From Steroidobacter sp. (lineage in GTDB: Bacteria > Pseudomonadota > Gammaproteobacteria > Steroidobacterales > Steroidobacteraceae), in the NCBI GenBank assembly GCA_025929585.1, contig JAICPY010000040.1, forward strand, positions 1-33,981: a DNA stretch of 33,981 bases. The letters are read 5' to 3'. The translations under genes were made by a program, and so were the position numbers. The notes beneath the pieces were generated by a model, which worked only from the letters and a program-made list of their open reading frames with translations, had not been told where the DNA came from and did not search any database. Positions 7,833 through 25,924 of the stretch are shown piece after piece (position 1 is the stretch's first letter; every line of letters starts with the position of its first letter).

Positions 7833-7845
7833 GCAATGTCGGTGT

Positions 7846-10698: not shown

Positions 10699-10764
10699 GG
10701 CAATACTCGAAAATTAAAGCTGCAAGCACCTATTAACGGCCGAGGAACGAGATAAGTCACGTGC

Positions 10765-12306
10765 TCATTGCACGCTACGGCGAAAATCCTCGGGGAAATA
10801 CTTCATCGCGCTCTGCACGGGGAACGGCGTCATACCACCCAAGCCGCAAAGAGATCCGTGCAGCATCGTCTCGCAGAGCTCATCGATCAGCTGCAGATTG
10901 CGTTCGCGATCCACGTTGGCAAGGATTCGGTCCATGAGTTCCACGCCCCGGGTGGACCCGATGCGACAGGGCGTGCATTTGCCGCAGGATTCCACCGCAC
11001 AAAATTCCATCGCATAACGCGCCATCTTCGCCATATCGGCCGTGTCATCGAAGGCGACAACGCCACCGTGACCGAGCAGTGCGCCGATTCCCGACAAAGC
11101 TTCGTAGTCGATTGCAGTATCGAATTGAGACTCGGGGATATAAGCGCCCAACGGTCCGCCGACCTGGACGGCTCGGATCGGACGGCCTGTCGCAGAGCCC
11201 CCGCCGAAGTCATAAAGCAACTCTCGTAAAGTCATTCCGAAGGCGCGCTCATACAAGCCGCCGCGTTTGATGTTGCCTGCGAGCTGCAAAGGAATCGTGC
11301 CGCGCGATTTGCCCACGCCGAAGTTCTTGTAGAACTCCGCGCCTTTGTGAAGGATGACGGGCACGCTGGCGAGCGAGATCACGTTGTTCACGATCGTCGG
11401 CTGTCCAAACAATCCCTTGATGGCGGGCAGAGGAGGGCGCACGCGCACTTCGCCGCGTTTGCCTTCCAAGCTTTCGAGCATCGAGGTTTCCTCACCGCAG
11501 ATATAGGCTCCGGCGCCGAGGCGGACTTCCAGGTCGAAAGTCTTGCCGGAGCTCAGAACATCCCGGCCGAGATAGCCGGCTTCATACGCCGCCGCGATCG
11601 CCTCGTTGAGTGCGCGATGTGCGTGTGGATACTCCGCGCGCAAGTAAATGAAACCACGCGTCGCACCGACAGCAATACCCGCAATCGTCATCCCTTCGAT
11701 GAGCATGAAGGGGTCGCCTTCCATTAGCATGCGATCTGCGAACGTTCCCGAATCGCCTTCATCTGCGTTGCACGTGACGTATTTCTGCGCGGCGGATTGA
11801 TCGTGCACCGTTTTCCACTTGATGCCTGTGGGAAACGCTGCTCCGCCCCGACCGCGCAATCCTGAATCCGTGACGGCTTGAACGATTTGCGTCGGCGCCA
11901 TCTCCAGCGCGCGGCGAAGTCCCGCGTAACCATCGTGCGCTTGATAGTCCTCGAGGCTCACCGGATCGATGACGCCTACGCGCGTGAAGGTCAGGCGCTG
12001 CTGACTCTTCAAATAGGAAATCTCCTCCGTAGGCCCAAGGTGCAGCGGGTGGGTACCGGCGGCGAGAAAATCCGAGTTGAATAAGCTCTCGACATCTTTC
12101 GGCGTGACTGGCCCGTATGCGTGACGACCCTGCGCAGTGGCAACCTCGACCAGCGGCTCGAGCCAATTCAGTCCGCGCGTGCCGTTGCGAATGATGCGAA
12201 TCGGCAGATCTCGTTTGGTCGCCTCGGCTGCAATGGCCGCAGCGACAGCCTCAGCGCCGTTCGAAAGAGCGGCCGCATCACGAGGTACGTACACCGTTGT
12301 TCGCAT
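10765..12306 (-). CDS. fdsB: NAD-dependent formate dehydrogenase, beta subunit (NADH/FMN site)
   Basis: FdsB is the diaphorase subunit that reduces NAD+. After an N-terminal thioredoxin-like region, the NuoF-like part shows GLRGRGGAAFPTG (149-161) and the FMN/NADH loop YVTCNADEGDSGTFADR (about 176-192). AGAYICGEETSMLESLEG and the [4Fe-4S] motif CGKCTPC with Cys441, 444, 447 and 487 follow. ATG 12306 is chosen (513 residues): it follows the fdsG stop by two bases and has AAGGA upstream. A TTG at 12312 would overlap fdsG and add two residues. It is coupled to fdsG and precedes fdsA. Confidence 0.96.
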   Translation of the reverse strand: MRTTVYVPRDAAALSNGAEAVAAAIAAEATKRDLPIRIIRNGTRGLNWLEPLVEVATAQGRHAYGPVTPKDVESLFNSDFLAAGTHPLHLGPTEEISYLKSQQRLTFTRVGVIDPVSLEDYQAHDGYAGLRRALEMAPTQIVQAVTDSGLRGRGGAAFPTGIKWKTVHDQSAAQKYVTCNADEGDSGTFADRMLMEGDPFMLIEGMTIAGIAVGATRGFIYLRAEYPHAHRALNEAIAAAYEAGYLGRDVLSSGKTFDLEVRLGAGAYICGEETSMLESLEGKRGEVRVRPPLPAIKGLFGQPTIVNNVISLASVPVILHKGAEFYKNFGVGKSRGTIPLQLAGNIKRGGLYERAFGMTLRELLYDFGGGSATGRPIRAVQVGGPLGAYIPESQFDTAIDYEALSGIGALLGHGGVVAFDDTADMAKMARYAMEFCAVESCGKCTPCRIGSTRGVELMDRILANVDRERNLQLIDELCETMLHGSLCGLGGMTPFPVQSAMKYFPEDFRRSVQ

Positions 12307-12308
12307 CT

Positions 12309-12818
12309 TCAATCGTGTTCCTTCGCGGCGCTCTTGGCCGCGATCAGCGCGTCGAACTTTTCTGCATCGACTCGACCATGCAGCTCCGTGTCGATCATCA
12401 AGGCGGGCGAATTAGCGCAATTGCCCAGGCAGTAGACAGGCTCGAGCGTAAATTGTCCGTCGGCGGTGGTTTGATGAAACGAAACCTTCAAGCGTTGCTT
12501 CGCATGTGCATTCAGCTCATCGCCACGCATCGCTTTGCAGGATTCAGCCTGGCAAATTTGAACGATGTGCTCGCCCGGCGGGTGCCGGCGGAAATAGTGA
12601 TAGAACGTGACGACACCGTGCACTTCCGCGCGCGACAAGTTGAGCGCGGTAGCGATGATCGGTATCGCGGCGTCCGGAATGTATCGGAGCCTGTGCTGCA
12701 CCGCGTGCAGAACTTGCAGCAGGGGGCCCGGCTGAGATTGATACTGTGCTAGCGCGAGATCGATCTGCTCGCGAGTGTGTGCGTCCAGTAGTTCAGGTCG
12801 TGCAGGCGTGGTGTTCAC
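12309..12818 (-). CDS. fdsG: NAD-dependent formate dehydrogenase, gamma subunit ([2Fe-2S], NuoE-like)
   Basis: The 169-residue protein is a NuoE-type thioredoxin-like [2Fe-2S] subunit that works with FdsB in electron transfer to NAD+. Cluster ligands are Cys89 and Cys94 (CQAESC) and Cys130 and Cys134 (CLGNC). The helical N-terminal domain includes VHGVVTFYHYF. The start is GTG at 12818; no clear ribosome site is visible, so the exact start is uncertain. It heads the fds operon, with the repeat-rich 12819-13062 region upstream. Confidence 0.93.
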   Translation of the reverse strand: MNTTPARPELLDAHTREQIDLALAQYQSQPGPLLQVLHAVQHRLRYIPDAAIPIIATALNLSRAEVHGVVTFYHYFRRHPPGEHIVQICQAESCKAMRGDELNAHAKQRLKVSFHQTTADGQFTLEPVYCLGNCANSPALMIDTELHGRVDAEKFDALIAAKSAAKEHD

Positions 12819-12914
12819 GACAATGGTTATTCGACAGCGGATGGGAGGTCGGGGTCAAGCAGTGGAATCCCGGTGAATGCCGTGAGGGTACGCACGGCGC
12901 AATCGACAAAGTTC

Positions 12915-13020
12915 GCTGACGGTCGACGCTGGCACGTTTGGCAAGAGAGGGGAAAGCTGCTCTAGCCTCAAGAATCGTCCCAAGATCGTCTCAAGAATCG
13001 TCCAAGCGTCGACCGTCAAC
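12915..13020. repeat. Inverted GACGGTCGACG dyad related to the heptad arrays, plus tandem 12-mers
   Basis: GCTGACGGTCGACGC (12915-12929) and GCGTCGACCGTCAAC (13006-13020) are inverted arms matching at 14 of 15 positions, 76 bases apart. The GTCAAC and GTCGAC words relate them to the heptad family. Inside the spacer are three tandem copies of CAAGAATCGTCC-like words (12969-13003, the middle one a base shorter). It lies between gfa and fdsG. Confidence 0.7.
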
Positions 13021-13022
13021 TT

Positions 13023-13070
13023 CATCAACCTCGAGTGGCATCAACCTCGAGCGGCATCGACCTCAAGCGG
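13023..13070. repeat. Three tandem 16-base repeats reaching into the gfa 3' end
   Basis: CATCAACCTCGAGTGG, CATCAACCTCGAGCGG and CATCGACCTCAAGCGG follow one another exactly (13023-13038, 13039-13054, 13055-13070). The last copy contains the gfa stop codon (13063-13065) and the final two alanine codons, so the array may have grown out of the gene end. Confidence 0.85.
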
Positions 13071-13635
13071 CCAGAACGCCCTTGGCCTTCGCCGTATGGG
13101 TGGCGATCAGGTCCATCAAGGCCGGCGACAAGCAATCGTACGGTTCCAGCTTCAGCTCTTTGAGCCGTGCACGTACCGCACCCATCTGCTCGGGCTTCGC
13201 TCCGGCTTCGATAATCGAAGACACGAACGCCGCAAACTCAGGGGCTGACCAGCCTTTCTCTTGCGACAGCTCGACATGAACGAAATCCAATCCGTAGAAC
13301 GGATGGTTCTTGTTCTCGATCCGGCCGTACATGTGCACACCGCATCCCGTGCACGCGTAGCGCTGGATCACGGCCGCAGGATCGGCGATCTTCAGCTTCT
13401 GCGCATTCTGGGTCACTTTCACTTTGTCGCGGGAAATCACGGCGACGACGGAAAACAGTGCGCCCTGAGGCTTCCAGCATTTCGTGCAGCCGCAAGCGTG
13501 ATTGAACGCGACATTGCCGTCCAGCTGGACGACGACCGGCGATTCTTTGCACAAGCACTTGAGAGTGCCGCCCTTGAAGTTTGGATCCCCTGGCTGCACG
13601 CCGTTATCGATCGAGGGATGAAGTGAGATGCTCAT
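13063..13635 (-). CDS. gfa: S-(hydroxymethyl)glutathione synthase (glutathione-dependent formaldehyde-activating enzyme)
   Basis: Gfa promotes condensation of formaldehyde with glutathione to S-hydroxymethylglutathione, the substrate of FrmA. The 190-residue protein has the family's Zn-binding cysteines: CLCKE (about 28-32), CGCTKC (about 48-53) and [13 protein letters not shown]. Length is as expected for the family. ATG 13635 has GGAGAA about 8 bases upstream. It lies 46 bases after frmA and is the apparent last gene of the xox unit. Formaldehyde also condenses with glutathione spontaneously, so the in vivo need for Gfa is debated. Confidence 0.93.
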
Positions 13636-13681
13636 AAATGAATTCTCCGTTGTTTCGACTTGAAGCCTTTCGCACCCGTCT

Positions 13682-14791
13682 TTAGAACATCACAACGCTG
13701 CGAATCGACTCGCCCTTGTGCATCAGATCGAAGCCATCGTTGATCTTCTCCAATGGCATGGTGTGAGTGATGAGATCGTCGATATTGATTTTCCCTTCCA
13801 TGTACCAGTCGACGATCTTCGGTACGTCGGTGCGACCGCGAGCACCGCCGAATGCCGTGCCTTTCCATACGCGGCCGGTGACCAATTGAAACGGCCGCGT
13901 CTTGATTTCCTGGCCCGCACCGGCGACGCCGATGATCACGGAGACACCCCAACCGCGGTGGCAGCACTCCAATGCCTGGCGCATCAAATCTACGTTGCCG
14001 ACGCACTCGAAACTGTAGTCTGCGCCGCCATCGGTGACGTTTACCAAGTGGGCAATCAGATCGCCGCCGACTTCTTTGGGATTGACGAAATGAGTCATGC
14101 CGAATTTTTCGGCAAGCTCTTTACGACGCGGATTGATGTCCACGCCGACGATCTTGTTCGCGCCTGCAAGGCGCGCGCCTTGGATGACGTTCAGGCCGAT
14201 GCCACCCAAGCCGAATACCACGACGTTCGCGCCTGGCTCGACTTTTGCGGTGTTGATCACGGCACCGATGCCGGTTGTGACACCGCATCCGATATAGCAG
14301 ACCTTGTCGAATGGCGCGTCCTCGCGAATCTTTGCAACGGCAATCTCGGGCAGCACCGTGAAGTTCGAGAACGTCGAGCAACCCATGTAGTGGTGGATCA
14401 AGTCCTTGCCGATAGAGAACCGACTCGTTCCATCGGGCATCAGCCCTTTGCCCTGGGTCGCGCGGATCGCGGTGCACAGATTCGTTTTGCGTGACAAACA
14501 AGATTTGCACTGGCGACATTCAGGCGTATAGAGCGGAATCACGTGATCGCCCTTGCGAAGTGAGGTCACGCCTGGACCGACATCGACGACGATGCCTGCG
14601 CCTTCGTGGCCCAGAATGGCGGGAAATAAGCCTTCCGGGTCAGCACCCGAGCGAGTGAACTCATCCGTATGACACAGGCCGGTCGCCTTGATCTCGACCA
14701 GAACTTCACCTGCGCGTGGGCCGTCGAGATCGACAGTCGCAATCTCAAGTGGTTTGCCCGCGGCGTAAGCAACGGCTGCCTTGGTTTTCAT
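13682..14791 (-). CDS. frmA: S-(hydroxymethyl)glutathione dehydrogenase / class III alcohol dehydrogenase
   Basis: FrmA (AdhC) oxidises S-hydroxymethylglutathione to S-formylglutathione with NAD+ in the cytoplasm. The 369-residue medium-chain dehydrogenase has catalytic Zn ligands Cys40 (GLCHTDE) and His62-Glu63 (GHEGAG), structural Zn cysteines 92, 95, 98 and 106, and the nucleotide-binding [13 protein letters not shown] segment. Length matches class III ADH. ATG 14791 has GAGGA 6 bases upstream. It follows xoxJ by 24 bases and precedes gfa. The next enzyme of this path, S-formylglutathione hydrolase, is not in the window. Confidence 0.96.
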
Positions 14792-14815: not shown

Positions 14816-15760
14816 TTATGGAGATTCGTGTCGCTTGGAGACCAGTTGCGAGAGGCTGCGCTCCTGCGGGCTTCCGGCATGTGCGATGTCTTGCGTCGGA
14901 AATCCCGAGGCGAGCTTCCCGCTTTCATCGAGCAGCGGAATGCCGAAGCTGATCAATATTTCATCGATGCGTTGACGGTGAGTTGCGATCCACTGATCTA
15001 GCGAATCCTTCCATTCCTTCTCGCCGTATCGCACGCCCATCGAAATCTGAAAATCGAATTTGATCTGGGAATCTCCGGTGAATGCGACCGCTCGCCACAC
15101 TGGCGTGCCTGAATGCTTGCGAACCAGATGGGCCGCGATTGGGCCCCATACGATCGCGGCATCGATGTTGCCGGCTTTGAGCTCGCGCTCGATGATCGAA
15201 TTCGGATTCTCATCCGGATCGCCGCTTTGCTGCGCATACGACACTGCTTGCTGCAGCATTCTGTTTCGCAGCAGCCAATCCGCACCGGGTGATTGCACGA
15301 ACACACCGATACGAAGCGAATGCAGTTGCTTCTCCGGCAGCGCGAGTAAGTCATCCGGACTGCGCAGGTTCTCCAGACCCTTTTGAACAGGGAAGACCAG
15401 CGCGTACGTGGAGCGCATGTAGGGCTTAGTCGTCGCCGTAAGCTCGTAGCCTGCGGGCACACCGATGATCACGTCGCACGCAAATTCCCGCGTGTTTGGG
15501 TCTTGCTTGCGCAAGGTGTTGCGCACGAAGCCCATGCGTTGAGGAAAGTACGTGTATTCGAGCTTGCGCCCCAGATCGCGTGCGAGCTCTGCCGCGATCT
15601 TGTTCTCGTAACCTTCGCCGCTGCGATGAGACAAAGGAAGATTATTCGGATCGGAACAGACCTTCAGCACAGCTTCGTCGGATTGCGCGGCGAGCGCGCC
15701 GGCGGCGAGTGCGCCACACAGCGTAAGAATCGTAACAAACGTTCCATATCGTTTCGCCAT
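14816..15760 (-). CDS. xoxJ: XoxJ-type periplasmic binding protein of the methanol dehydrogenase system
   Basis: This is the MxaJ/XoxJ-like solute-binding-fold protein associated with PQQ dehydrogenases. The 314-residue product has a signal peptide (MAKRYGTFVTILTLCGALAAGALA) and a type-3 substrate-binding fold beginning LKVCSDPNNLPLSHRSGEGYENKIA, with RIGVFVQSPG and DAAIVWGPIAA later. Known XoxJ/MxaJ proteins are thought to help activate or mature the dehydrogenase, not to feed a transporter; no ABC permease is nearby. It starts 14 bases after the xoxG stop, with AGGA upstream. Confidence 0.9.
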   Translation of the reverse strand: MAKRYGTFVTILTLCGALAAGALAAQSDEAVLKVCSDPNNLPLSHRSGEGYENKIAAELARDLGRKLEYTYFPQRMGFVRNTLRKQDPNTREFACDVIIGVPAGYELTATTKPYMRSTYALVFPVQKGLENLRSPDDLLALPEKQLHSLRIGVFVQSPGADWLLRNRMLQQAVSYAQQSGDPDENPNSIIERELKAGNIDAAIVWGPIAAHLVRKHSGTPVWRAVAFTGDSQIKFDFQISMGVRYGEKEWKDSLDQWIATHRQRIDEILISFGIPLLDESGKLASGFPTQDIAHAGSPQERSLSQLVSKRHESP

Positions 15761-15774
15761 CGCATCGAATCCTG

Positions 15775-16212
15775 CTACTTACCGATTTCAGTCAAACGGC
15801 CGGGTTTGATCTTGCCATCCGAACGGCCCTTCAGATAAGCGTACAGGCCTTCCCAGTTCTTCTGCATCATCGCGCTGCCGTTGAAAGGCGGCATTCCCTT
15901 TTCGATTCGTCCATTCATGATCGTGCTGTGGAAGTCTTCCTTAGAGAGCACTTTCATGGAGGCGATCAGTGAAGGGCCGACCATGCCTTCTTGCTCCGCG
16001 CCGTGACAGCGCTCGCATGCAAGCGCGCGCCATGTCTTCCAGCCGGCAAGAGTTTGTGCATCGACCTGCGTGCCATCGCCCTCCACTGTGTAGATGGCAC
16101 CTGTCTTCGCTTCGTCTTTCGAGGAGGGTGCAGCGTTCTCAGAAAACACTGCGGTGGAAATCGCGACCGTTACTGCGAGCAAAGGCAGCGCACCGGTATA
16201 TCGTCGCATCAT
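15775..16212 (-). CDS. xoxG: XoxG-type periplasmic cytochrome c
   Basis: The 145-residue protein has a signal peptide (MMRRYTGALPLLAVTVAISTAVFS) and one class I haem c site, Cys66-Glu-Arg-Cys69-His70, with Met107 (KGMPPF) as the probable sixth ligand. Its place directly after xoxF and before xoxJ identifies it as the electron acceptor of XoxF. It is shorter than typical XoxG, so family assignment rests on context as well as sequence. Either of two adjacent ATGs (16212, 16209) can start it. A strong hairpin (16234-16265) separates it from xoxF. Confidence 0.88.
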   Translation of the reverse strand: MMRRYTGALPLLAVTVAISTAVFSENAAPSSKDEAKTGAIYTVEGDGTQVDAQTLAGWKTWRALACERCHGAEQEGMVGPSLIASMKVLSKEDFHSTIMNGRIEKGMPPFNGSAMMQKNWEGLYAYLKGRSDGKIKPGRLTEIGK

Positions 16213-16323: not shown

Positions 16324-18129
16324 TTACGGAACTGCGAACACGAACAGAGATCCACCGAGAGTCGTGTACTTCGCAAGATCTTTGTAACCGCCGACGGCGC
16401 CGAGGCCTTCGGTGGATTCAGTAAGACCTGCTGCCATACCGATGCCGGCCCAACCGCCGATACCGGAGTAGACGCCTACGTACTGCTTGCCGCCGAACTC
16501 GTAGGTGAACACGTTACCGATGATTCCCGATGGAGTCTTGAACTTCCACAACTCCTTGCCGTCCTTCGTGCTCACGGCTTTGATGTAGCCTTCGAGCGTG
16601 CCGTAGAACACTACATCGCCTGCAGTCGTCAATGCGCCTGACCACACCGAGAAGCGCTCTGGCTTCGACCAGACGATCTTGCCGGCAGAAGGATCCCATG
16701 CGATGAAGTTACCCATGCCGCCGTGGCTGCCTGGTGCTGGATACATCGTCAATGTCGCACCGACATACGGTTGACCTGCGGTGTATTCCACTTCGAATGG
16801 CTCGTAGGTCATGCACACATGATTCGTCGGAACCATGATCAGACCTGACTTGCGATCGAAGCTTGCTGGTTGCTGATCCTTCGATCCCAGTGCCGCTGGG
16901 CAGATGTCTTTCACGTTGACATCCGGACCTGTGGTACCCGGCGAGTACTTCTTGTCGACGATCGGACGACCCGTCTTCATGTCGACCTTCGAGGCCCAGT
17001 TCACTTTTGGATCGTACTTCTCTGCGACGAGCAACTCGCCCGTGGCACGATTCAAGGTGTACCCGAAGCCATTGCGATCGAAGTGGACGACTGCCGGCAC
17101 TTGCTTGCCCTTGTGGTTGATGTCCACGAGCAAGTTTTCGTTCACGCCGTCATAGTCCCATTCATCGTGTGGCGTCATCTGGTAGGCCCATTTCGCCATG
17201 CCTGTATCCAGGTCACGTGCGAAGAGGGTCATTGACCATTTGTTGTCGCCAGGACGCTGGGCAGGATTCCAAGTACCCGGGTTGCCGGTGCCGTAGTACA
17301 CCAGGTTGAGCTTCGGATCGTAGGAGAACCAGCCCCAGGTGGTGCCGCCGCCCAACTTCCATTGGTCGCCTTCCCAAGTCTTGATGGATGAATCCTTGCC
17401 GACGGGCGCCAGCTTGCCGTTCACCCAAGTCATCGTCTTCTGTGGGTCGACGAGCAACTCGTTGTCAGGGCCTGTGCTCCATGCTGTCCACACCTTCTTG
17501 CCGGTGTTGACGTCGTAGGCGATCAAGCGACCACGTACGCCGAACTCACCGCCGGAGATACCGGTGATGACCTTGTCCTTGAAGACGTGCGGAGCGTTGG
17601 TGTTGGTCTCGCCGATCTTCGGATCGCCATTCTTGGCAGTCCAAACGACCTTGCCGCTGTTCGCATCGAGCGCGACCAGAGTCGTATCCGCCTGCTGCAA
17701 GAAGATCTTACCGTGGCTGTATGCCAAACCGCGGTAGACCGTATCGCAGCACATCACAGGTATCACGCTCGTGTCCTGTTTCGGCTCGTATTTCCATTTG
17801 AACGACTGATCCTTCAGATTGACGGCGTACACATTGTTCGGGAACGGAGTGTGCACGAACATCGTATCGCCGATGACGAGCGGTGATCCTTCGTGTCCGC
17901 GCAATACGCCAGTGGACATCGTCCATGCGACTTGCAAATTTCCGACATTGCTTGCATTGATTTGTTTGAGCTCGCTGTAGCGGTGATTGGCGTAATCGCC
18001 CGCTTGCGCTGCCCAGTTGGAGGACTTGGCCATGGCATCTTCAAGGTCTGTTGCCATGGCAAGGTTTATCGAAGCGCCCGTAACGGACGCCGCGATCGCG
18101 ACTAGAATCAGATGACGCTGAGAGTTCAT
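16324..18129 (-). CDS. xoxF: Lanthanide-type PQQ methanol/ethanol dehydrogenase XoxF
   Basis: XoxF oxidises methanol and similar alcohols in the periplasm with PQQ and a lanthanide ion, passing electrons to XoxG. The 601-residue eight-bladed propeller protein has a signal peptide ending LAMA. It also has the vicinal disulfide Cys127-Cys128 (VMCCDTV), metal ligands Glu195 (GGEFG) and Asn283 (GTGNPG), and the active-site segment HDEWDYDG. There Asp325 is catalytic and Asp327, two residues on, is the extra Asp that marks lanthanide enzymes; MxaF has Ala there. ATG 18129 is chosen because GAGG lies 8 bases upstream; upstream in-frame starts (18135, 18171) fit less well. A sigma-54 site lies at 18197-18212. 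Confidence 0.97.
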
Positions 18130-18189
18130 ATCCATTTCCTCATGCTCACGTGAAATGAGGCCTGATGACACATCAAAGGGAGACTATGC

Positions 18190-18576
18190 ATGCTAATGCA
18201 ATCCTTATGCCACGCTCGAACTGCACTCGCCTTGCTCGGTGCGATCACGCTTTATGCGTTCTCGCCACTTGCGATCGGTGAGGAGCAGACCAAACACGAT
18301 TACCCGACGCTGGCGCGTGTCGAGTACGTGCAGGAGTGCCTCACCAAAAGCGATGGCAAGCTCGCGAGCCTTTATCAGTGCTCGTGCGTGATCGATGAAA
18401 TCGCAAAGAGGTTGAGCTACGACGAATTCGTCGAAGCTTCCACGTTTTCTCGTTATGCCTCGTTGGCTGGGGAGCGCGGCGGGTTGTTTCGCGATCCGGA
18501 GCACGGCAAGAAGATGGCCAAGGATTTCAAGGCGCTCGAAGGCGAAGCCTCGAAGCACTGCGGGATCTCCCAGTAA
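18190..18576 (+). CDS. Small exported cysteine-containing protein beside xoxF
   Basis: I do not recognise a named family. The 128-residue product has a signal peptide (hydrophobic 11-28, likely cut near AIG-EE) and four cysteines in the mature part: Cys50, Cys64 and Cys66 (CxC in YQCSCVIDEI) and Cys124. It is predicted mainly helical after that. ATG 18190 has AAGGGAG 7 bases upstream. It is divergent from xoxF (60 bases between starts) and converges with the YVTN gene. Its first codons overlap the sigma-54 site driving xoxF. Location suggests a periplasmic helper of alcohol oxidation, which is inference only. Confidence 0.8.
   Translation: MLMQSLCHARTALALLGAITLYAFSPLAIGEEQTKHDYPTLARVEYVQECLTKSDGKLASLYQCSCVIDEIAKRLSYDEFVEASTFSRYASLAGERGGLFRDPEHGKKMAKDFKALEGEASKHCGISQ
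18197..18212 (-). promoter_or_regulatory. Sigma-54 promoter for xoxF
   Basis: On the minus strand the sequence is TGGCATAAGGATTGCA, matching the TGGCAC-N5-TTGCW consensus with the GG and GC exactly 12 bases apart. Transcription would start near 18186, about 57 bases before the xoxF ATG. It lies inside the first codons of the divergent small gene. A closely matching site precedes the porin gene. Confidence 0.75.
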
Positions 18577-18587
18577 AAGACGCGCCA

Positions 18588-19640
18588 TCACGATTTATTC
18601 TGCGCAGCGGGGGTGGGGCCAAGGACGACGCCCCACGGCGTCTTGCCAACGGCGATGCGTTTGATGACCGTGAGGTTCTTCGTATCGACGACGCTGATAT
18701 CGTTGGATGGGCCGTTCGCCGTATATAAGAAGCGGCCGTCCTCACTCATGGCCATTCCCCAGGGCCGAGTGCCTACTTCGATTTCTTTGAGAAGCTTCGA
18801 GCTCTTCAAGTCGATGACGGCCACGGTTCGCCCGCGACCCGTCGTCATGTAGATCCTGTTTCGTGGGGTATCCAAGATCACAGCCATCGGTCGCGCTTCC
18901 TTGCGCATCTGTAGCACTCGCTCGACGGGCTCACCTTCCGGCACCGCCATGCGATACAACGACGCATCGAATTCACCTGAAACGTAAGCGGTTTTACTGT
19001 CAGGCGTGAATGCCGCATCGCGCGGACGATGCCCCACTTTGACGGAGCGCAGCACCTTCAGAGTGGATGCGTCGATGATCGACACGGCGTTGTCGGACTC
19101 GTTGGTGACTAGAACCCACCGACCATTCGGGGATACGACGACGCCTTCGGGTTCCTTTCCGACCGCCACGCGCTCGATGACTTCGCCGCTCCCGGTATCC
19201 ACGACGGAAGTCGTCGCGATATCTTCGTTCGCCACGAACATCCGCTTGCCGTCTTTGCTCAAATCGAACTGCTCTGGATCCGAGCCTGCTTTGAGCACCT
19301 TCAATAGTTTGTTCTGGCGCGTGTCCACAACGGCGATGCCGTCAGCGGCGAGATCGCGCTCGAGCTTTGCGCATTCCTCATCTGGAACGGTGGGCGGACA
19401 TTTCGGTAAACCGCTTACCGCGACATACAGGAGAGTGCCGTCCGCATTGAGTTTCAGCCCCCGCGGACGTTTGCCTACTGAGATCGTGGCGATGACTTCA
19501 GCTTTGTCAGTGTCGAGGACCGAAACGCTCTGGCCATCCTCGTTGGAAACATAGGCTCTGCCCGCGTGTGCTGACAACGCGGGCAGAGCGAGGAGGAGGA
19601 AACAGGCCAGTGCAGATCGTCGTCGAATCGCGAAGGTCAT
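18588..19640 (-). CDS. YVTN-repeat beta-propeller protein (PQQ-pathway associated)
   Basis: The 350-residue exported protein has a signal peptide (MTFAIRRRSALACFLLLALPALSAHA) followed by repeated YVTN-type blades, for example RAYVSNEDGQSVSVLD, RMFVANEDIATTSVVD, WVLVTNESDNAVSIID and FLYTANGPSNDISVVD. This matches the class of beta-propellers found beside PQQ-dependent alcohol catabolism genes, whose biochemical function is unknown. A CPPTVPDEEC insertion breaks the second blade. It starts 14 bases after the porin stop, so the two probably share the sigma-54 transcript. It converges with the small gene at 18576. Confidence 0.87.
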   Translation of the reverse strand: MTFAIRRRSALACFLLLALPALSAHAGRAYVSNEDGQSVSVLDTDKAEVIATISVGKRPRGLKLNADGTLLYVAVSGLPKCPPTVPDEECAKLERDLAADGIAVVDTRQNKLLKVLKAGSDPEQFDLSKDGKRMFVANEDIATTSVVDTGSGEVIERVAVGKEPEGVVVSPNGRWVLVTNESDNAVSIIDASTLKVLRSVKVGHRPRDAAFTPDSKTAYVSGEFDASLYRMAVPEGEPVERVLQMRKEARPMAVILDTPRNRIYMTTGRGRTVAVIDLKSSKLLKEIEVGTRPWGMAMSEDGRFLYTANGPSNDISVVDTKNLTVIKRIAVGKTPWGVVLGPTPAAQNKS

Positions 19641-19654
19641 TACTCGATAGGTCC

Positions 19655-20896
19655 TCAGAACGAAAAGTACGCGCCGATATTGAAATTATTACTGTCATTC
19701 TCGATGCCACTATGCGCCTCGGCATTGACGTCGGTGAACTCAGCCAGCAGCGTGAAGTTCTCTGTCAGTGAATGGTAGGCGCCGAGTGTGTACTTCTTAT
19801 TTGTTTTGACAAGATCGGAAAGTGCCTCTCCCGAGGCGAGATCGAGGTTGCTCTCACCATAGTTGAGGCCGAGCTTGGTGTTGCCGAGCTTGTAGGTGAT
19901 TTGCGCAAGAAAGCCGTCCGAGTCTCTCTCATTACCCGCACGATCATCCGAGTTCAGAAACAGCGCAGTCGTGCCCATTCCTTCGCCTTGGTAGTACCAC
20001 GCAAGAAATTCGAACGCGCCGAACGTCACCTTGCCGCCGACATCGAAACCGAAGCTATCGAAGTCTTGCGCATCGGTTGCGCCTTCATGCTGCTGCGTGA
20101 TGAATGTCGCCGACAAATAAACCGGGCCTGTCGTGTAGGCGACTTTGCCGTGAAAACCAGGGCTGGATTCCGGTACCGCGACGTTTTGCACGATTGGCTC
20201 TAGTGGATCGAAAATGCCGATCGTGAACTTCAACCCATTGAAGTCGGGCGTCGTGTAATTGATCTGCCCGAGCCAATCCGTGTAGATATAGCCCAACCCG
20301 ATCGAACCCAACGAGGTGTTCGAAGGAGTCGCGTAGTTGCCGTTTGCTGCGCCTACGCCAGGCAAAGTCATGTCATTCAGAATTGCATCTGCACCGAACA
20401 ACCCGATGTTACGGCCGAGCATGAAGGTGCCCATGTCGTCGTTGCCAAACGTCATGAACACTTGACGAATATCCAATCCAGTCGTACCCAGCGCAGTGTT
20501 TCGAAGCGCAGCGCCCTGGCCGAGATTCGGACTGCCGTCGTTCGTGCTGATTCCGGGATAAAAACCGAACGTCACGCCGATGTCGTAGCCGTTTTGCGTG
20601 GTCGACACGCCCAGTGCCAACGCAGCCGGCAACAGGCCATTGCTGATCGAGGAGGTGTCGTCTTCCCCGGCAGTGCCGATACACGCTAGGCCACCGCCGA
20701 CTGGATCAGCTGTGTCGCTCTCGCAGCTTGCGCGAATGTAATGGACGTTGACGTTACCGTTCGCTGTGAACTTCCAATCACCTGCGGTCACCTCGACGGC
20801 TTCCGCAGTCGCGCCCAGGCTTAGCGCGCCCAGCATCGCGGTAAATGCGTATGCTGTTGAGTGGTCAAGCCCGTTCTTCCGTTGTTTCGCCGGCAT
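19655..20896 (-). CDS. Outer-membrane porin
   Basis: The 413-residue product is a Gram-negative general porin-like barrel. It has a signal peptide ending ATAEA, then VEVTAGDWKFTANGNVNVHYI as the first strand, many alternating strands, and a C-terminal FNIGAYFSF ending in Phe as porins do. ATG 20896 is chosen because GGGAG lies 8 bases upstream and the signal follows directly; an in-frame start at 20953 would add 19 non-signal residues. It shares a transcript with the YVTN protein. A role in letting alcohol or other substrates across the outer membrane is inferred from the shared sigma-54 promoter type. Confidence 0.88.
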   Translation of the reverse strand: MPAKQRKNGLDHSTAYAFTAMLGALSLGATAEAVEVTAGDWKFTANGNVNVHYIRASCESDTADPVGGGLACIGTAGEDDTSSISNGLLPAALALGVSTTQNGYDIGVTFGFYPGISTNDGSPNLGQGAALRNTALGTTGLDIRQVFMTFGNDDMGTFMLGRNIGLFGADAILNDMTLPGVGAANGNYATPSNTSLGSIGLGYIYTDWLGQINYTTPDFNGLKFTIGIFDPLEPIVQNVAVPESSPGFHGKVAYTTGPVYLSATFITQQHEGATDAQDFDSFGFDVGGKVTFGAFEFLAWYYQGEGMGTTALFLNSDDRAGNERDSDGFLAQITYKLGNTKLGLNYGESNLDLASGEALSDLVKTNKKYTLGAYHSLTENFTLLAEFTDVNAEAHSGIENDSNNFNIGAYFSF

Positions 20897-20980
20897 GGAG
20901 CTGCTCCCTGAAGCAGGTACCTCCCGCATCAGCGATGGAGAGGCACGTGGCATGTGGATGTAAGTGGGGCGCCGAGGTCA

Positions 20981-20996
20981 AGCAAGCGTTATGCCA
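20981..20996 (-). promoter_or_regulatory. Sigma-54 promoter for the porin operon
   Basis: The minus strand reads TGGCATAACGCTTGCT, with GG and GC 12 bases apart and a TGGCATA start identical to the xoxF site. Transcription would begin near 20970, about 74 bases before the porin ATG. Confidence 0.78.
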
Positions 20997-21107
20997 GTAG
21001 GTTTTTTTGCGCGACATTTGCAGCATGCCGGCCATCGGCTCGGCGTTTGTATGTGCAAGATTCCGTGAAGGGAGGAGGGCGTGCTCGCTCGTCCGAGTCG
21101 CCCTGCA

Positions 21108-21139
21108 GCGAGAGTGTGCGAAACGCATGACACTGTCGC
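21108..21139. promoter_or_regulatory. Dyad, candidate upstream activator site
   Basis: GCGAGAGTGT (21108-21117) and ACACTGTCGC (21130-21139) are inverted arms matching at 9 of 10 positions, centres 22 bases apart, or two helical turns. They lie about 140-170 bases upstream of the predicted porin start, a usual place for sigma-54 activator binding. I could not find a clear copy upstream of xoxF or pqqD, so this is tentative. Confidence 0.4.
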
Positions 21140-21255
21140 GGCGCACGTGGTACAGGTGGTACAGTCGGCAAACACGGTTGGGCGTGTATAGAATGCGCGC
21201 AGGCTCACAGGAAGTGGGCGCCGATATGAACGGATAGAACCGAAGAGCAGGGTCG

Positions 21256-23316
21256 ATGGTGACCCACGAGGCCGGGGGAATGCAGGAGCCAACTGCCACA
21301 CAGCATGCTGCGGACGTGCTGCGCTTCGTGCGCGGAGCGGACAAACAATCGTCCTCGCGAAACGCCGCGCTGAGCTCTGCGATCGCGAAATCCTGGCGTC
21401 GTTGCGTCGAGGATTACGAGCTCGATCCCGCACAAACTCAGCCGGCCTCAGTGGTCGATTTGCATGTGCTGAAGGATTTGCGAGAGCGGCACGCCGAGCT
21501 CGTGCAAATCGCCTCCGCGGAAATCGATTGGCTCTACGAACACATCGCCGGATCCGGATATGCATTGCTGCTCACCGACGCGAGCGGAATCATCCTCTAC
21601 GAAAAAGCCGAGCCGACGCTTGCCAGAACTTTTCATTCCGCGGGCCTGCTGATCGGCGCGGACTGGAGCGAGCCTTCGCAGGGCACGAACGGTATGGGCA
21701 CATGCATCGCCGAAAAGCGCGCGATGACCGTGCATCTCGATGAGCATTTTCAAGGCTGCCACATCGGTCTTTCCTGTTCGGCGGCTCCGATCTGCGATCC
21801 TTCCGGTTCATTGCTCGCGGTTCTAGATGCATCGACGCTGGATGCTCGCGATACGCGAGTGAGTCAGGCTCACACGATGGCGCTCGTGAATCTGTCGGCG
21901 CGGTTGATCGAGAAATGCGTTTTCCTGCGTCATTTTCGCGAAACGACGATACTGCGTTTTCACGCGCGACCCGAGCTCGTAAACCTTCAACACGACGGTG
22001 CGATCGCTCTAGGGTGTGATGCGAAAGTCCTTTCGGTCGATGGCACGGCGGTGCGCCTGCTCGGGGCGAGACATCGCGACGAGCTGATCGGTCGTCGAAT
22101 CGATGAAGTCTTCGATATTCGTCCCGATGAAATACTTGGAGCCGAGTACGCCACTCGCAACGGATTGCTGACGGTGCGCGATACATTCTCGGGACGACGC
22201 TTCTTCGCGAGTCTGGGTCACGACGTCGCGGCTCGACCATCCGTCGCCCTGTCGCGATCGAGCGCGGCGGCTCATTCCGTGCTTCAGTTGGCGCCGTCGA
22301 TTGCTCGCAAGAGCGCCCTGAAGTTGGAAGAATTGGCAGGCGATGATCCGCAGATGCTTCGCAACGTGCGCAGTGCTCGCCGGGTCGCATCCTCACAAGT
22401 GCCAGTGATGATTCAGGGACCTACAGGCGCAGGAAAGGAAGCATTCGCGCGTGCGCTACACGCTGCAAGCGGAAGAGCCGACAAGCCGTTCGTCGCGTTG
22501 AATTGTGCGGCGATTCCAGAATCTCTGATCGAAAGCGAGTTGTTCGGCTATCGGCCCGGAGCTTTCACCGGCGCACGCAAGGAAGGCATGAAAGGCAAGA
22601 TCCTTCAGTCTTCGGGCGGCACGTTGTTCCTGGATGAAATCGGCGACATGCCCCTGCTGTTGCAAACCCGCCTGTTGCGGGTGCTAGAGGAGCAAGAAGT
22701 CATGCCCCTCGGCGCAGAAACACCTTTGAAGGTCGATTTGCATGTGATCTGCGCATCGCATCAAAACTTGCGAGGGATGATTCAGCGTGGGACCTTTCGC
22801 GAGGATTTGTACTATCGCTTAAATGGCATCACGCTCGAGCTCCCGCCGCTCGCACAGCGTACGGATAAAGAACGTTTGATTCGTGAGTTCCTGGCCGCCG
22901 AGACGAGCGATGGTCGGCCCGCTGCTATCGAGATGGATGCTTTCGAATGTCTCCTCAGCTATTCCTGGCCGGGCAATATTCGCGAGTTGCGCAATGTGAT
23001 CCGAACTGCCTTGGCGATTTGCGATGGCGGCGTCGTACGACTGTCAGACCTTCCGAGTGAAGTGCGCAGCAACGCCGTTGAATCAAGAGACTCGCATCGG
23101 GATACGAGCGCCAGTTCAGCGGCACCCGAGATCGGCGCGAAATCCGGCTGCGATGCGTTCGACATCGCCGAGCGTGAGGTCCTGTTGCGCGCGATTCGCG
23201 ACAGCCATGGAAACATGTCTCACGCTGCCAAGAGTCTTGGTGTGAGCCGCAACACGCTATACCGGCGCTGCAAGCGTTTAGGGCTAGCAGTGCAGCGATC
23301 TCATCCAGTACTTTAG
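21256..23316 (+). CDS. Sigma-54-dependent activator, AcoR type (GAF, AAA+, Fis-type HTH)
   Basis: The 686-residue regulator binds upstream sites and remodels sigma-54 RNA polymerase by ATP hydrolysis. It has an N-terminal sensory part with a GAF-like domain (about 75-225) and a possible PAS-like segment (about 240-310). The AAA+ domain carries Walker A GPTGAGKE (388-395), the sigma-54-contact motif GAFTGA (435-440), and Walker B GGTLFLDEIGD (about 454-464). A C-terminal Fis-type helix-turn-helix (GNMSHAAKSLGVSRNTLYRRC) follows. The architecture is that of AcoR-type regulators, several of which control alcohol or acetoin catabolism. The ligand is unknown. Start ATG 21256; ATG 21280 also has a G-rich site. 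Sigma-54 sites flank it at the porin, xoxF and pqqD genes. Confidence 0.95.
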   Translation: MVTHEAGGMQEPTATQHAADVLRFVRGADKQSSSRNAALSSAIAKSWRRCVEDYELDPAQTQPASVVDLHVLKDLRERHAELVQIASAEIDWLYEHIAGSGYALLLTDASGIILYEKAEPTLARTFHSAGLLIGADWSEPSQGTNGMGTCIAEKRAMTVHLDEHFQGCHIGLSCSAAPICDPSGSLLAVLDASTLDARDTRVSQAHTMALVNLSARLIEKCVFLRHFRETTILRFHARPELVNLQHDGAIALGCDAKVLSVDGTAVRLLGARHRDELIGRRIDEVFDIRPDEILGAEYATRNGLLTVRDTFSGRRFFASLGHDVAARPSVALSRSSAAAHSVLQLAPSIARKSALKLEELAGDDPQMLRNVRSARRVASSQVPVMIQGPTGAGKEAFARALHAASGRADKPFVALNCAAIPESLIESELFGYRPGAFTGARKEGMKGKILQSSGGTLFLDEIGDMPLLLQTRLLRVLEEQEVMPLGAETPLKVDLHVICASHQNLRGMIQRGTFREDLYYRLNGITLELPPLAQRTDKERLIREFLAAETSDGRPAAIEMDAFECLLSYSWPGNIRELRNVIRTALAICDGGVVRLSDLPSEVRSNAVESRDSHRDTSASSAAPEIGAKSGCDAFDIAEREVLLRAIRDSHGNMSHAAKSLGVSRNTLYRRCKRLGLAVQRSHPVL

Positions 23317-23342
23317 CTCGAGCACATTCCTCCTACGCCTGC

Positions 23343-23358
23343 TGGCACGCAATCTGCT
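23343..23358 (+). promoter_or_regulatory. Sigma-54-type promoter for pqqD-pqqU
   Basis: TGGCACGCAATCTGCT keeps the perfect TGGCACG -24 element, with GG and GC 12 bases apart. The -12 box is CTGC instead of TTGC. Transcription would start near 23369, about 58 bases before pqqD. It begins 27 bases after the activator stop. Confidence 0.6.
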
Positions 23359-23426: not shown

Positions 23427-23768
23427 ATGGTGGCAGATCGCGGCCAGCGGCGGATTGCCAGAACTGAAAGCAGAAGACGGGCTCCGAAACCTACGTCGTA
23501 CGGCGTGCAACTCGCTGTGGGTGTGCGGCTTGCGCGCGCGAGCGCGCAGCAGAAACCTCCCATGCTGATTTTCAAAGGCGCAAAGATTCAGTTGAACGAA
23601 GGTGCTCACGCAATCCTGGCTCTATGCGATGGCTCGCGCTCTCGAGAACAAATTATTGCGGAAGCCTCGCAGCGTGCGCCGGATGGTGCGTTGGCAGCCG
23701 ATATCAGTGCCTTCCTCGATGCAGCACAAACCCGAGGCTGGATCATCGACAAAGGCAACCAGCAATAG
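23427..23768 (+). CDS. pqqD: PqqD-like PQQ biosynthesis peptide chaperone
   Basis: PqqD binds the PqqA precursor peptide and presents it to the radical SAM enzyme PqqE during PQQ synthesis. The 113-residue protein has the winged-helix RRE fold pattern: strands in PPMLIFKGAKIQL, then NEGAHAILALCDGSRSREQIIAEASQR and a C-terminal DISAFLDAAQTRGWI helix. Canonical PqqD is about 90-95 residues; the extra 20 or so Arg-rich N-terminal residues may reflect a later real start. ATG 23427 has GAGGG about 5 bases upstream. No pqqA, B, C or E is in the window, so it is either an outlying copy or part of a split set. Confidence 0.8.
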   Translation: MVADRGQRRIARTESRRRAPKPTSYGVQLAVGVRLARASAQQKPPMLIFKGAKIQLNEGAHAILALCDGSRSREQIIAEASQRAPDGALAADISAFLDAAQTRGWIIDKGNQQ

Positions 23769-23854: not shown

Positions 23855-25924
23855 GTGATATTGAACGAACGATTGAGCAGTGTGATTTTTGCCGTCCTAC
23901 TGTGCGCGGCGGGTGCGGCGAGTGCCGCAGAGCCCGCGAATACCGTCGTCGTCACGGCGACGCGAACGAGTCAGTCAATTTTCGAGGCGCCGGCCGCTAT
24001 CGATACCATCGATGGCGCTACGCTCAGCGAACACAAGCTGCGCGTGAACTTGTCCGAAAGCCTTGGGCGGGTTCCGGGCTTGGTAGTGCAAAACCGGCAG
24101 AACTATGCTCAGGATTTGCAAGTCTCCTCGCGCGGGTTCGGTGCTCGGGCTTCATTCGGGGTGCGCGGAGTGAGACTTATCCAAGACGGCATTCCGCTGA
24201 CGATGCCGGACGGCCAAGGCCAAACGGGTCTATTCGACTTAGATGGGGCCGCGCGAGTGGAGGTCTTGCGTGGACCTTTCGCCGCACTGTACGGCAATTC
24301 TTCTGGCGGCGTGATCCAAATCGTCAGCGACGACCAAGTCGAACAGGGCGGTTTGGAGCTCAGCACGACCTACGGCGAGGATGGATTCCGCCGATACGGC
24401 TCGCAGTTTGCGGCTCGGCTCGGGGCGGCTCAGTTGAGCGGAAATCTCTCACGCTTCGATACCGACGGGTATCGCGAGCACAGCGCTGCCCGACGAGACG
24501 TGGCGAATTTGCGGTTACGCGTGGCGCCGGATGAACGTTCATCGTTCACGGCGATCGCAAATTTTCTCGATCAACCGGATACGCAAGATCCGTTGGGACT
24601 GACCCGTGAACAGCTGGAGGAAGATCCATCGCAGGCGGGCAGGAATGCGCTAGCACTCAATACTCGCAAGTCGACTCGTCACGTGCAGGGCGGCGCTTCG
24701 TATGAGCGTTCCTTGTCCGATCGAAATCGCATTCGCGTAATGGGCTATTACGGCGATCGCGACCTCACGCAATTCCTAGCCAATCCCAGCGACGCGCTGA
24801 CCGGCTCGGGCGGTGTCGTTGATCTTGCTCGCAAGTTCGGCGGTGGCGCAGTGCAATGGGATAACGAAGGTGAACTGGCTGGTGCGCCTTACGAGTTGAC
24901 CTTGGGCGTCGAGTACGATCGGATGAAAGAGAGACGCCTAGGTTTCGTCAATGTAGGCGGTGTGCGCGGGGATCTGCGCCGTGATGAGGACGACACGGTC
25001 TACAGTGTGAATCAGTATTTGATCGCGCAGTGGCGGCCGATCGAGCGATGGATGTTTTCCGGCGGCGTGCGGCACAGCGAGGTGCGTTTCGAGATCGACG
25101 ATGATTTCATCGTTGGTCCGAATCCCGATGATAGCGGCAGGCTGAGTTATGAAAGCACTCAGCCTGTCATCGGGCTTTTGTTCGAAGCCACGCCCAGTGT
25201 CAATCTATTTGCGTCGGCGGGCCGCGCATTCGAGACGCCGACGTTCAGTGAGCTTGCCTACCGACCAGATGGCTCGCCCGGACTGAACTTTGAGCTGGAT
25301 GCGGCGATCAGCACCAACTACGAAGCCGGTGTGAAGGCGTTCGTGGGTGAGAAGACCCGGCTAACAGCGACGCTATTCAGGTCTGACACGAAGGACGACA
25401 TCGTGACGGGTCCGCCGCCATTTCCAGGCCGCAATACATTCGTCAATGCGGCCAAGACTCGACGCGAGGGTGCGGAGCTCGCGGCCCAATATGCGACGTC
25501 GCACGGTTTGGATATGGGGCTTGCTTATACCTATACCAGCGCGCGGTTCGAGGATTTCATCAACTTCAGCGGTGTTGATCTGAGCGGTGCTCGGCTCCCC
25601 GGTGTTCCGCGGCAGTCACTCTATGCGGACTTATCTTGGCGTCACGCGCCTAGCGGCCTGTTCACAGGCCTGGAAGCGCGCTGGACGGATGAGGTGTATG
25701 TGAACGATGCGAATTCGGACTTCGCAGATAGCTACAGCGTGCTCAATCTGCACGCCGGACTCAACCGCGGGCTTGGCGATTGGGATTTGAATGGTTTCGT
25801 CCGCATCGACAATGTGACAGATGAGAACTACGTCGGCTCTGTAGTAGTGAATGGCGCCAGCGATCGATTCTTCGAGCCCGCACCGGGCCGCACGTACTAC
25901 GTCGGCATCACGGCCGGCTTTTGA
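23855..25924 (+). CDS. pqqU: TonB-dependent receptor resembling YncD/PqqU (PQQ uptake)
   Basis: The 689-residue outer-membrane receptor has a signal peptide ending AASA, then a plug domain (NTVVVTATRTSQSIFEAPAAI as TonB-box region). The plug motifs NLSESLGRVPGLVVQNRQ, NYAQDLQVSSRGFG, DGIPLTMPDGQGQ and EVLRGPFAALYGNSSGG match E. coli YncD closely as I remember that sequence. So do AAGRAFETPTF-type, NAAKTRREGAEL and FVRIDNVTDENYVGSVVVN segments in the barrel. YncD is the PQQ importer PqqU. GTG 23855 is chosen because AAGGA precedes it and the signal peptide starts there; a TTG at 23861 is the alternative. Nearby pqqD and xoxF fit PQQ uptake; a lanthanophore receptor is less likely. Confidence 0.85.
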   Translation: MILNERLSSVIFAVLLCAAGAASAAEPANTVVVTATRTSQSIFEAPAAIDTIDGATLSEHKLRVNLSESLGRVPGLVVQNRQNYAQDLQVSSRGFGARASFGVRGVRLIQDGIPLTMPDGQGQTGLFDLDGAARVEVLRGPFAALYGNSSGGVIQIVSDDQVEQGGLELSTTYGEDGFRRYGSQFAARLGAAQLSGNLSRFDTDGYREHSAARRDVANLRLRVAPDERSSFTAIANFLDQPDTQDPLGLTREQLEEDPSQAGRNALALNTRKSTRHVQGGASYERSLSDRNRIRVMGYYGDRDLTQFLANPSDALTGSGGVVDLARKFGGGAVQWDNEGELAGAPYELTLGVEYDRMKERRLGFVNVGGVRGDLRRDEDDTVYSVNQYLIAQWRPIERWMFSGGVRHSEVRFEIDDDFIVGPNPDDSGRLSYESTQPVIGLLFEATPSVNLFASAGRAFETPTFSELAYRPDGSPGLNFELDAAISTNYEAGVKAFVGEKTRLTATLFRSDTKDDIVTGPPPFPGRNTFVNAAKTRREGAELAAQYATSHGLDMGLAYTYTSARFEDFINFSGVDLSGARLPGVPRQSLYADLSWRHAPSGLFTGLEARWTDEVYVNDANSDFADSYSVLNLHAGLNRGLGDWDLNGFVRIDNVTDENYVGSVVVNGASDRFFEPAPGRTYYVGITAGF

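Follow-up and report, generated by a model that had tools for sequence, protein, structure and literature searches.

To our knowledge, little is known about the control of xoxF, the gene of the lanthanide-type methanol dehydrogenase, outside the classical methylotrophs. Sigma-54 promoters require ATP-driven activation and have a very low basal activity, so control of this type would turn methanol oxidation into a tightly switched trait, either on or off, in these bacteria. Among the described systems, BmoR is a soluble, alcohol-responsive sigma-54 activator with no phospho-receiver, and its enhancer, an inverted repeat, lies upstream of a -24/-12 promoter, at 193 bp (PMC8899819). Regulons of enhancer-binding proteins have been described in Clostridiales (PMC6615313), and RpoN motifs were reported at nitrogen genes of Methylosinus sporium 5 (PMC12403871). 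A search of mostly open-access literature (including PMC5623727, PMC12997753, PMC6778391, PMC12403871 and PMC5874634) gave no sigma-54 control of xoxF in the text excerpts that it covered. Here we have analyzed a 33,981-base stretch of DNA from Steroidobacter sp. (the window), which is the whole of contig C115 in a 5.13-Mb genome assembly (G000, completeness 97.58). In it, the gene of a predicted sigma-54 activator lies among xoxF, a porin operon and a pqqD-pqqU pair named for the cofactor pyrroloquinoline quinone (PQQ). An earlier note made from this DNA (the original prediction) had held that most regulators known for xox genes are two-component or hybrid systems, and this agrees with MxaY and PedS2/PedR2.

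The three -24/-12 sites of the locus are real and occur beyond chance (Table 1). The original prediction had proposed three 16-mers with GG and GC in -24/-12 register, and we found all of them where it had placed them, on the strands it gave. With respect to the core TGGCAY-N5-TTGCW, the xoxF and porin sites are exact and the pqqD site has one mismatch. The xoxF site lies 61 or 67 bases from the start codon (ATG at 18135 or 18129), and the pqqD site 68 bases from a conserved ATG (23427), with start-codon conservation judged by eye from the alignment. For the porin, the distance is 84 bases to the conserved ATG at 20896 and 27 to that of the longest open reading frame (ORF), at 20953, so that the spacing of 57-74 bases proposed earlier holds for xoxF and pqqD and fails for the porin. 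Across the window and 18 related loci, 315 kb in all, we counted 25 exact matches to TGGCAYN5TTGCW, compared with 1, 1, 1, 3 and 1 in five dinucleotide shuffles; allowing up to one mismatch, there were 47, compared with 9 to 20 in the shuffles. Finding three matches to TGGCAYN6TGCW within 5.16 kb, where 0.055 are expected, has a Poisson P of ~2.7e-5, a value that must be read in the knowledge that these very sites shaped the pattern.

To follow the sites in relatives, we searched the activator in 118 genomes and fetched the regions around 18 matches, plus further regions around xoxF; the activator-carrying relatives include Steroidobacter and Peristeroidobacter strains, among them Steroidobacter agaridevorans SA29-B and Peristeroidobacter soli JW-3, in which the pqqD-pqqU arm is absent from the locus. 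The scan of related genomes suggested with the original prediction came out in its favor, with sites at 10/10 loci for xoxF, 12/14 for the porin side and 8/8 for the pqqD side. At xoxF the site is exact in all ten activator-linked loci (the window and nine relatives, all of the Steroidobacter group; in G007 the linkage spans a contig break inside the porin gene). The 12 porin-side sites comprise nine exact ones and three with one mismatch, and in L043-L047 the site stands directly before the beta-propeller gene. The pqqD-side site, with one mismatch, is present in all eight loci where pqqD immediately follows the activator. Six fetched loci (L049, L050, L051, L054, L055 and L056) were left out of the counts, except that L051 was entered as a porin-side miss. 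L050 has an exact site whose gene falls beyond the contig end, and L055 has one upstream of a porin, with a tblastn match to the C-terminal part of the activator only. L049, L054 and L056 carry more distant activators adjoining other PQQ dehydrogenases. As a separate observation, -24/-12-like sites stand upstream of other PQQ dehydrogenases or of their apparent operons, with more distant activators nearby, at L056:3620-3635, L054:9143-9158 and L208:12721-12736.

Regarding the activator, the protein carries the domains of an enhancer-binding protein, namely PF00158 (Sigma54_activat), PF25601 (AAA lid) and PF02954 (Fis-type helix-turn-helix, HTH), and the Walker A and GAFTGA motifs are present in 16/16 activator sequences, that of the window included. 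A Pfam search of its N-terminal 348 residues gave no family. This part matches DhaR(N) by phmmer (3.1e-5), and the predicted fold (mean predicted local distance difference test score, pLDDT, of 75.7) matches that of DhaR(N) 4lrx with a Foldseek E of 8e-15, template-modeling (TM) scores of 0.49 (over the query) and 0.57, and a root-mean-square deviation of 15.1. We found no receiver domain, and the activator is therefore taken as a one-component protein, of DhaR/AcoR type by its N-terminal GAF-PAS region. The full-length DhaR model scores 295.7 bits, compared with an NCBIfam cut-off of 551, and we do not file the protein as DhaR; the earlier label 'AcoR-type' holds in a broad sense, the best structural match being DhaR(N). 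The genome has one copy of rpoN. Of 14 genomes of the genus, ten carry the activator together with this xoxF and four carry neither, counting G005, whose xoxF is cut by the contig end, and G007, whose activator has an in-frame TGA.

A GTGACA-N-TGTCAC palindrome lies between the porin promoter and the activator gene, followed by TGNNACA-like copies that we saw by eye. The motif GTGACASTGTCAC is matched at >=10 of 13 positions in 13 of the 14 activator upstream regions scanned, L049 and L051 being outside this set. An extended pattern, written from the repeats of the window themselves, has these repeats as its sole zero-mismatch place in the genome, the next best place having two mismatches; at up to three mismatches it gives 75 genomic places, compared with 52 for the reversed control. 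When a matrix made from the palindromes was run over the porin or beta-propeller promoters, 12/12 loci had a site, placed 119-334 bp upstream of the promoter. Sigma-70-like candidates in the region are at chance level (2 compared with 1.9 expected), and the scan gave none at any of the three gene starts; one of the candidates would serve the activator gene itself.

According to these results, our preferred reading, to which we give a probability of roughly 0.7, is that a one-component, DhaR/AcoR-like activator drives all three sigma-54 promoters from the repeats beside its gene. Its GAF-PAS sensor would bind a small molecule from the oxidation of alcohols or C1 compounds, be it methanol, formaldehyde or another alcohol. 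Once bound to the GTGACA-type repeats, the activator would switch on the divergent porin/beta-propeller promoter, some 140 bp away. The xoxF and PqqD-like/PqqU promoters may be activated by looping over ~2-3 kb, or from solution; the distances, ~2.9 kb for xoxF and 2.2 kb for pqqD, are within what sigma-54 activators can span. The repeats also adjoin the sigma-70-like promoter candidate of the activator gene, which might allow autoregulation. Comparison across genomes supports a sigma-54 type well for the xoxF, porin-side and pqqD-pqqU promoters, and a single regulon of the three is likely; the enhancer that they would share is one that we infer. Of the regulon originally predicted, the three sigma-54-type promoters and the adjacent activator co-occurring with xoxF have stood, while the step to one activator for all three is no more than likely.

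Table 1. Coordinates of the features of the locus (positions in the window).
Feature	Coordinates	Strand	Remarks
xoxF sigma-54 -24/-12 site TGGCATAAGGATTGCA	18197..18212	-	exact in 10/10 activator-linked loci
porin/beta-propeller operon sigma-54 -24/-12 site TGGCATAACGCTTGCT	20981..20996	-	kept at 12/14 loci
pqqD-like gene sigma-54 -24/-12 site TGGCACGCAATCTGCT	23343..23358	+	one-mismatch site at 8/8 loci
sigma-54 activator (GAF-PAS, AAA+ with GAFTGA, Fis HTH)	21256..23316	+	
enhancer-like repeats: ATGACACTGTCGC palindrome and further TGNNACA-like copies	21127..21169		palindrome at 21127-21139; copies to about 21169
sigma-70-like promoter candidate of activator gene	21165..21194	+	9/12 matches
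xoxF, lanthanide-type methanol dehydrogenase	16324..18135	-	ATG 18135 or 18129; TIGR03075 727.6 bits
Gram-negative porin (Porin_4)	19655..20896	-	PF13609 74 bits; conserved start 20896 (by eye); longest ORF from 20953
beta-propeller protein, TIGR03866-like, behind porin gene	18588..19640	-	259.3 bits, cut-off 287.3
second, divergent PqqD-like protein	23427..23768	+	TIGR03859 43.7 bits, cut-off 46
PqqU-like TonB-dependent PQQ receptor	23855..25924	+	6v81 and 9c4o matches; NF041535 608 bits, cut-off 1200
divergent gene, 128-aa protein	18190..18576	+	no Pfam/NCBIfam family; aligned orthologues; signal-peptide-like start
cytochrome c, xoxG position	15775..16212	-	PF13442; TIGR03874 under cut-off
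xoxJ-like periplasmic binding protein	14816..15760	-	TIGR03871 270.6 bits, cut-off 212.15

A number of observations weigh against this reading, some bearing on the sites and others on the activator. Regarding the sites, one could argue that they are chance look-alikes and that the genes start from sigma-70 promoters. The pqqD site has a C instead of a T in its -12 element; the motif at up to three mismatches shows no excess in the window (144 matches, shuffle mean 145.7), so the evidence rests on near-exact matches and conservation; and TGGCAYN6TGCW shows a small excess genome-wide, 55 matches in 5.13 Mb compared with 39 for the reversed control. The in-register conservation at three promoters across related genomes, the 25 exact sites in 19 loci, compared with 1-3 in shuffles, and the chance count of sigma-70 candidates, none of them at the three gene starts, make this explanation very unlikely. 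A different objection comes from the 128-aa gene, unmentioned in the original prediction, whose first codons overlap the xoxF site on the other strand: the site could be conserved as N-terminal codons, without being a promoter, and these codons do belong to an MxMQx[LV]C start that is common to all ten linked orthologues. In the ten-locus alignment, 12 of the 16 site columns are invariant, compared with 2/96 upstream and 9/80 downstream and a mean of 2.7 per 16 elsewhere, although two stretches of conserved coding sequence also reach 10/16. Most of the 96 upstream columns belong to the signal-peptide region of the 128-aa gene, and this region is unconserved outside the site; the orthologues of G016 and G034, whose xoxF has no site, keep the mature protein and lack the MxMQx[LV]C start; and the same -24/-12 letters stand at the two other promoters of the locus. 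Coding constraint is disfavored on these grounds, and we regard it as highly improbable.

As to the activator, the sites may be true sigma-54 promoters of which the neighboring protein controls that of the porin-side operon alone, possibly along with its own gene; xoxF and pqqD would then be served by other activators of the genome. The palindrome stands beside the porin promoter only: above the 95% background level, the matrix gave hits in 1/10 xoxF and 0/8 pqqD upstream regions of 600 bp, which leaves both without a local enhancer of the palindrome type, and the 12/12 matches on the porin side are partly circular because the matrix was trained on activator upstream regions. An enhancer palindrome near xoxF was considered and rejected, since the matches of some relatives lie inside the xoxF coding sequence and are absent in the window, and the matrix scan puts that one region only above background. 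With the palindrome so placed, that one activator serves three promoters is what we infer. The genome also has 14 stretches matching PF00158, a count that is not specific, as this family matches in all 14 control genomes too. G016 and G034, which are sister lineages, retain a site on the porin and pqqD sides and have none at xoxF. None of the eight activator-unlinked xoxF copies (L102, G016, G034, G030, G049 and three from other families of the order) has an exact site within 450 bp upstream; two of them, both from one genus, carry a one-mismatch site. The porin-side site is absent in L042, where apparent porin remnants were seen by eye between the activator and the beta-propeller gene, and in L051. 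Another TonB receptor follows the activator in L043, L044, L045 and L047, and convergent pqqBCDE genes do so in L046. Besides, related loci are not independent samples. Against control of the porin side alone stand the 10/10 exact sites of the linked xoxF compared with 0/8 of the unlinked ones, the joint presence or absence of activator and xoxF in 14/14 genomes of the genus, and the pqqD site directly after the activator gene in 8/8 loci. We therefore consider it unlikely and keep the activator driving all three promoters as our reading. Since the porin and pqqD sites of G016 and G034 exist without one at xoxF, the Steroidobacter-type lineage seems to have added the xoxF arm to a porin-pqqD arm. 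A tree of the activators agrees with this: those linked to xoxF fall into a single clade (support 1.0) that neighbors the G016/G017/G034 group, with a support of only 0.62 for the node joining the two.

Regarding the identity of the dehydrogenase, the protein belongs to the PQQ methanol/ethanol family and is nearest to XoxF, its closest solved chain being 6oc5, named lanthanide-dependent XoxF, at 929.8 bits. Its translation contains a DYD stretch, which we take to be the site of the second, lanthanide-binding Asp. The same genome has a second xoxF, L102 (G000:C177:4352-6187), which is 81-83% identical, stands by itself on a contig of 7.8 kb and lacks a sigma-54-like site in front of it. The genes at 7029-14791 of the window presumably encode formate dehydrogenase, Gfa and a class III alcohol dehydrogenase, labels taken from reading the translations. 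The 128-aa protein has conserved cysteines and no family, and is predicted to be all-helical; a fold search with it gave no PDB match at E 0.001. Relatives of this protein occur within about 1.5 kb of xoxF in 11/27 loci of other genera, and it may be regarded as a candidate XoxF partner.

In the pqqD-pqqU arm, the PqqD-like protein meets the Pfam PqqD cut-off and fails that of TIGR03859 (43.7 and 44.4 bits, cut-off 46). A canonical PqqD (98.1 bits) is encoded on contig C38 with pqqB, pqqC and pqqE, where pqqB and pqqC were named from translations. This rules out that PQQ synthesis is gated by a sole pqqD under sigma-54 control. The TonB receptor matches the two E. coli YncD/PqqU chains, 6v81 and 9c4o, at 491 and 487 bits, and falls under the NCBIfam cut-off of NF041535. 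Seven of the residues with roles in PQQ contact in E. coli PqqU (PMC12124388) are kept, as judged by eye: K274, R304, R365, R536, Q84, Q121 and Q308; Y99 is changed to F and Q310 to L. Because most of the PQQ-contacting residues are kept, import of PQQ by this receptor is a well-supported prediction. In place of pqqD-pqqU, the genes at L043:10885-13446, L044:10919-13411, L045:11594-14095 and L047:6418-8910 encode TonB receptors of about 830 aa, with 80-94% mutual identity and ~34% identity to the one behind pqqD in L042. A lanthanide chelate is a conceivable cargo of these receptors.

We also looked beyond the genus. Among 369 genomes sampled across the class, 28 (the one of the window and G013 included) have xoxF at E 1e-200 or better; outside the genus there are 30 xoxF matches, of which we scored the 27 whose locus had been fetched. 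Within 400 bp and on the coding strand, 1/27 has an exact site and 5/27 an exact or one-mismatch site, whereas shuffles gave a mean of 0.23 and 0/1000 reached five. The opposite strand of the same regions gives 2/27, and we therefore keep the xoxF sites of other families as suggestive only. Activator relatives scoring above 380 bits were found, in 15 chosen genomes, in 5/5 with a site and 3/10 without; they are on the xoxF contig in four of the five (that of G247 being cut by the contig end) and in one of the three, respectively. The strongest case is G464, in which xoxF, formate dehydrogenase genes (TIGR01591) and a porin relative are each preceded by an exact site. A further PQQ dehydrogenase of G464 has a site with one mismatch, and the genome encodes two full-length relatives of the activator, of which one shares its contig with xoxF. 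In G247, AGGCATGACACTTGCT precedes xoxF by 78 bases, and the contig also carries an activator relative as a fragment at its end. The xoxF site of G237 has one mismatch, and a porin relative of this genome has an exact one. These leads were chosen after looking; the similar sites and activators near xoxF in G464, G247 and G237 hint at a wider gammaproteobacterial theme. As further observations, the exact sigma-54-type site of the formate dehydrogenase genes of G464, on the contig of its xoxF and activator, is at L199:5924-5939, and in G356 and G201 an activator relative stands beside genes that match, below cut-offs, models of (5-formylfuran-3-yl)methyl phosphate synthase and of dihydropteroate-synthase-like proteins. 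Outside the family, the closest relative of the activator (46%) is that of Pseudomonas jinjuensis, divergent from a gene reading like an aldehyde dehydrogenase, upstream of which there is a one-mismatch site (L124:9743-9758).

If our reading is right, sigma-54 control would also couple a methanol-oxidizing enzyme to the scavenging of PQQ. A broader proposal, which we hold to be doubtful and put forward tentatively, is that a group of DhaR/AcoR-like sigma-54 activators could switch lanthanide-dependent methanol oxidation on and off in many gammaproteobacteria that have received little study. In the Steroidobacter group, one enhancer would then serve three promoters 0.14-3 kb away, and the enzyme, the outer-membrane pore and the import of PQQ would go up and down in concert, separately from the known two-component or hybrid lanthanide regulators.

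In comparison with the known systems, the activator resembles the one-component DhaR/AcoR-type proteins in its GAF-PAS sensor, its AAA+ domain with GAFTGA and its Fis HTH, with an N-terminal part that matches E. coli DhaR(N). It differs from them in scoring far below the DhaR cut-off and in its context, which is XoxF and PQQ and not dihydroxyacetone or acetoin genes. The locus as proposed is like BmoR (PMC8899819) in joining an alcohol sensor, an enhancer inverted repeat and a -24/-12 promoter, a likeness in the proposed mode of action; BmoR serves a butane monooxygenase with one described promoter, while the targets proposed here are a lanthanide-type methanol dehydrogenase, a porin and the import of PQQ. 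MmoR also places a C1-oxidizing enzyme under sigma-54 control by an adjacent GAF-group activator (PMC5874634), although its target is the soluble methane monooxygenase and xoxF appears as background only in the excerpts of that paper. The receptor is like E. coli PqqU (PMC12124388) over nearly its full length and in most contact residues; unlike it, the gene of the window lies behind a sigma-54-type promoter next to xoxF, and the protein carries the changes at Y99 and Q310. Finally, MxaY and PedS2/PedR2 also regulate lanthanide- or calcium-dependent PQQ alcohol dehydrogenases and are two-component or hybrid systems, whereas the regulator predicted here is a one-component sigma-54 activator.

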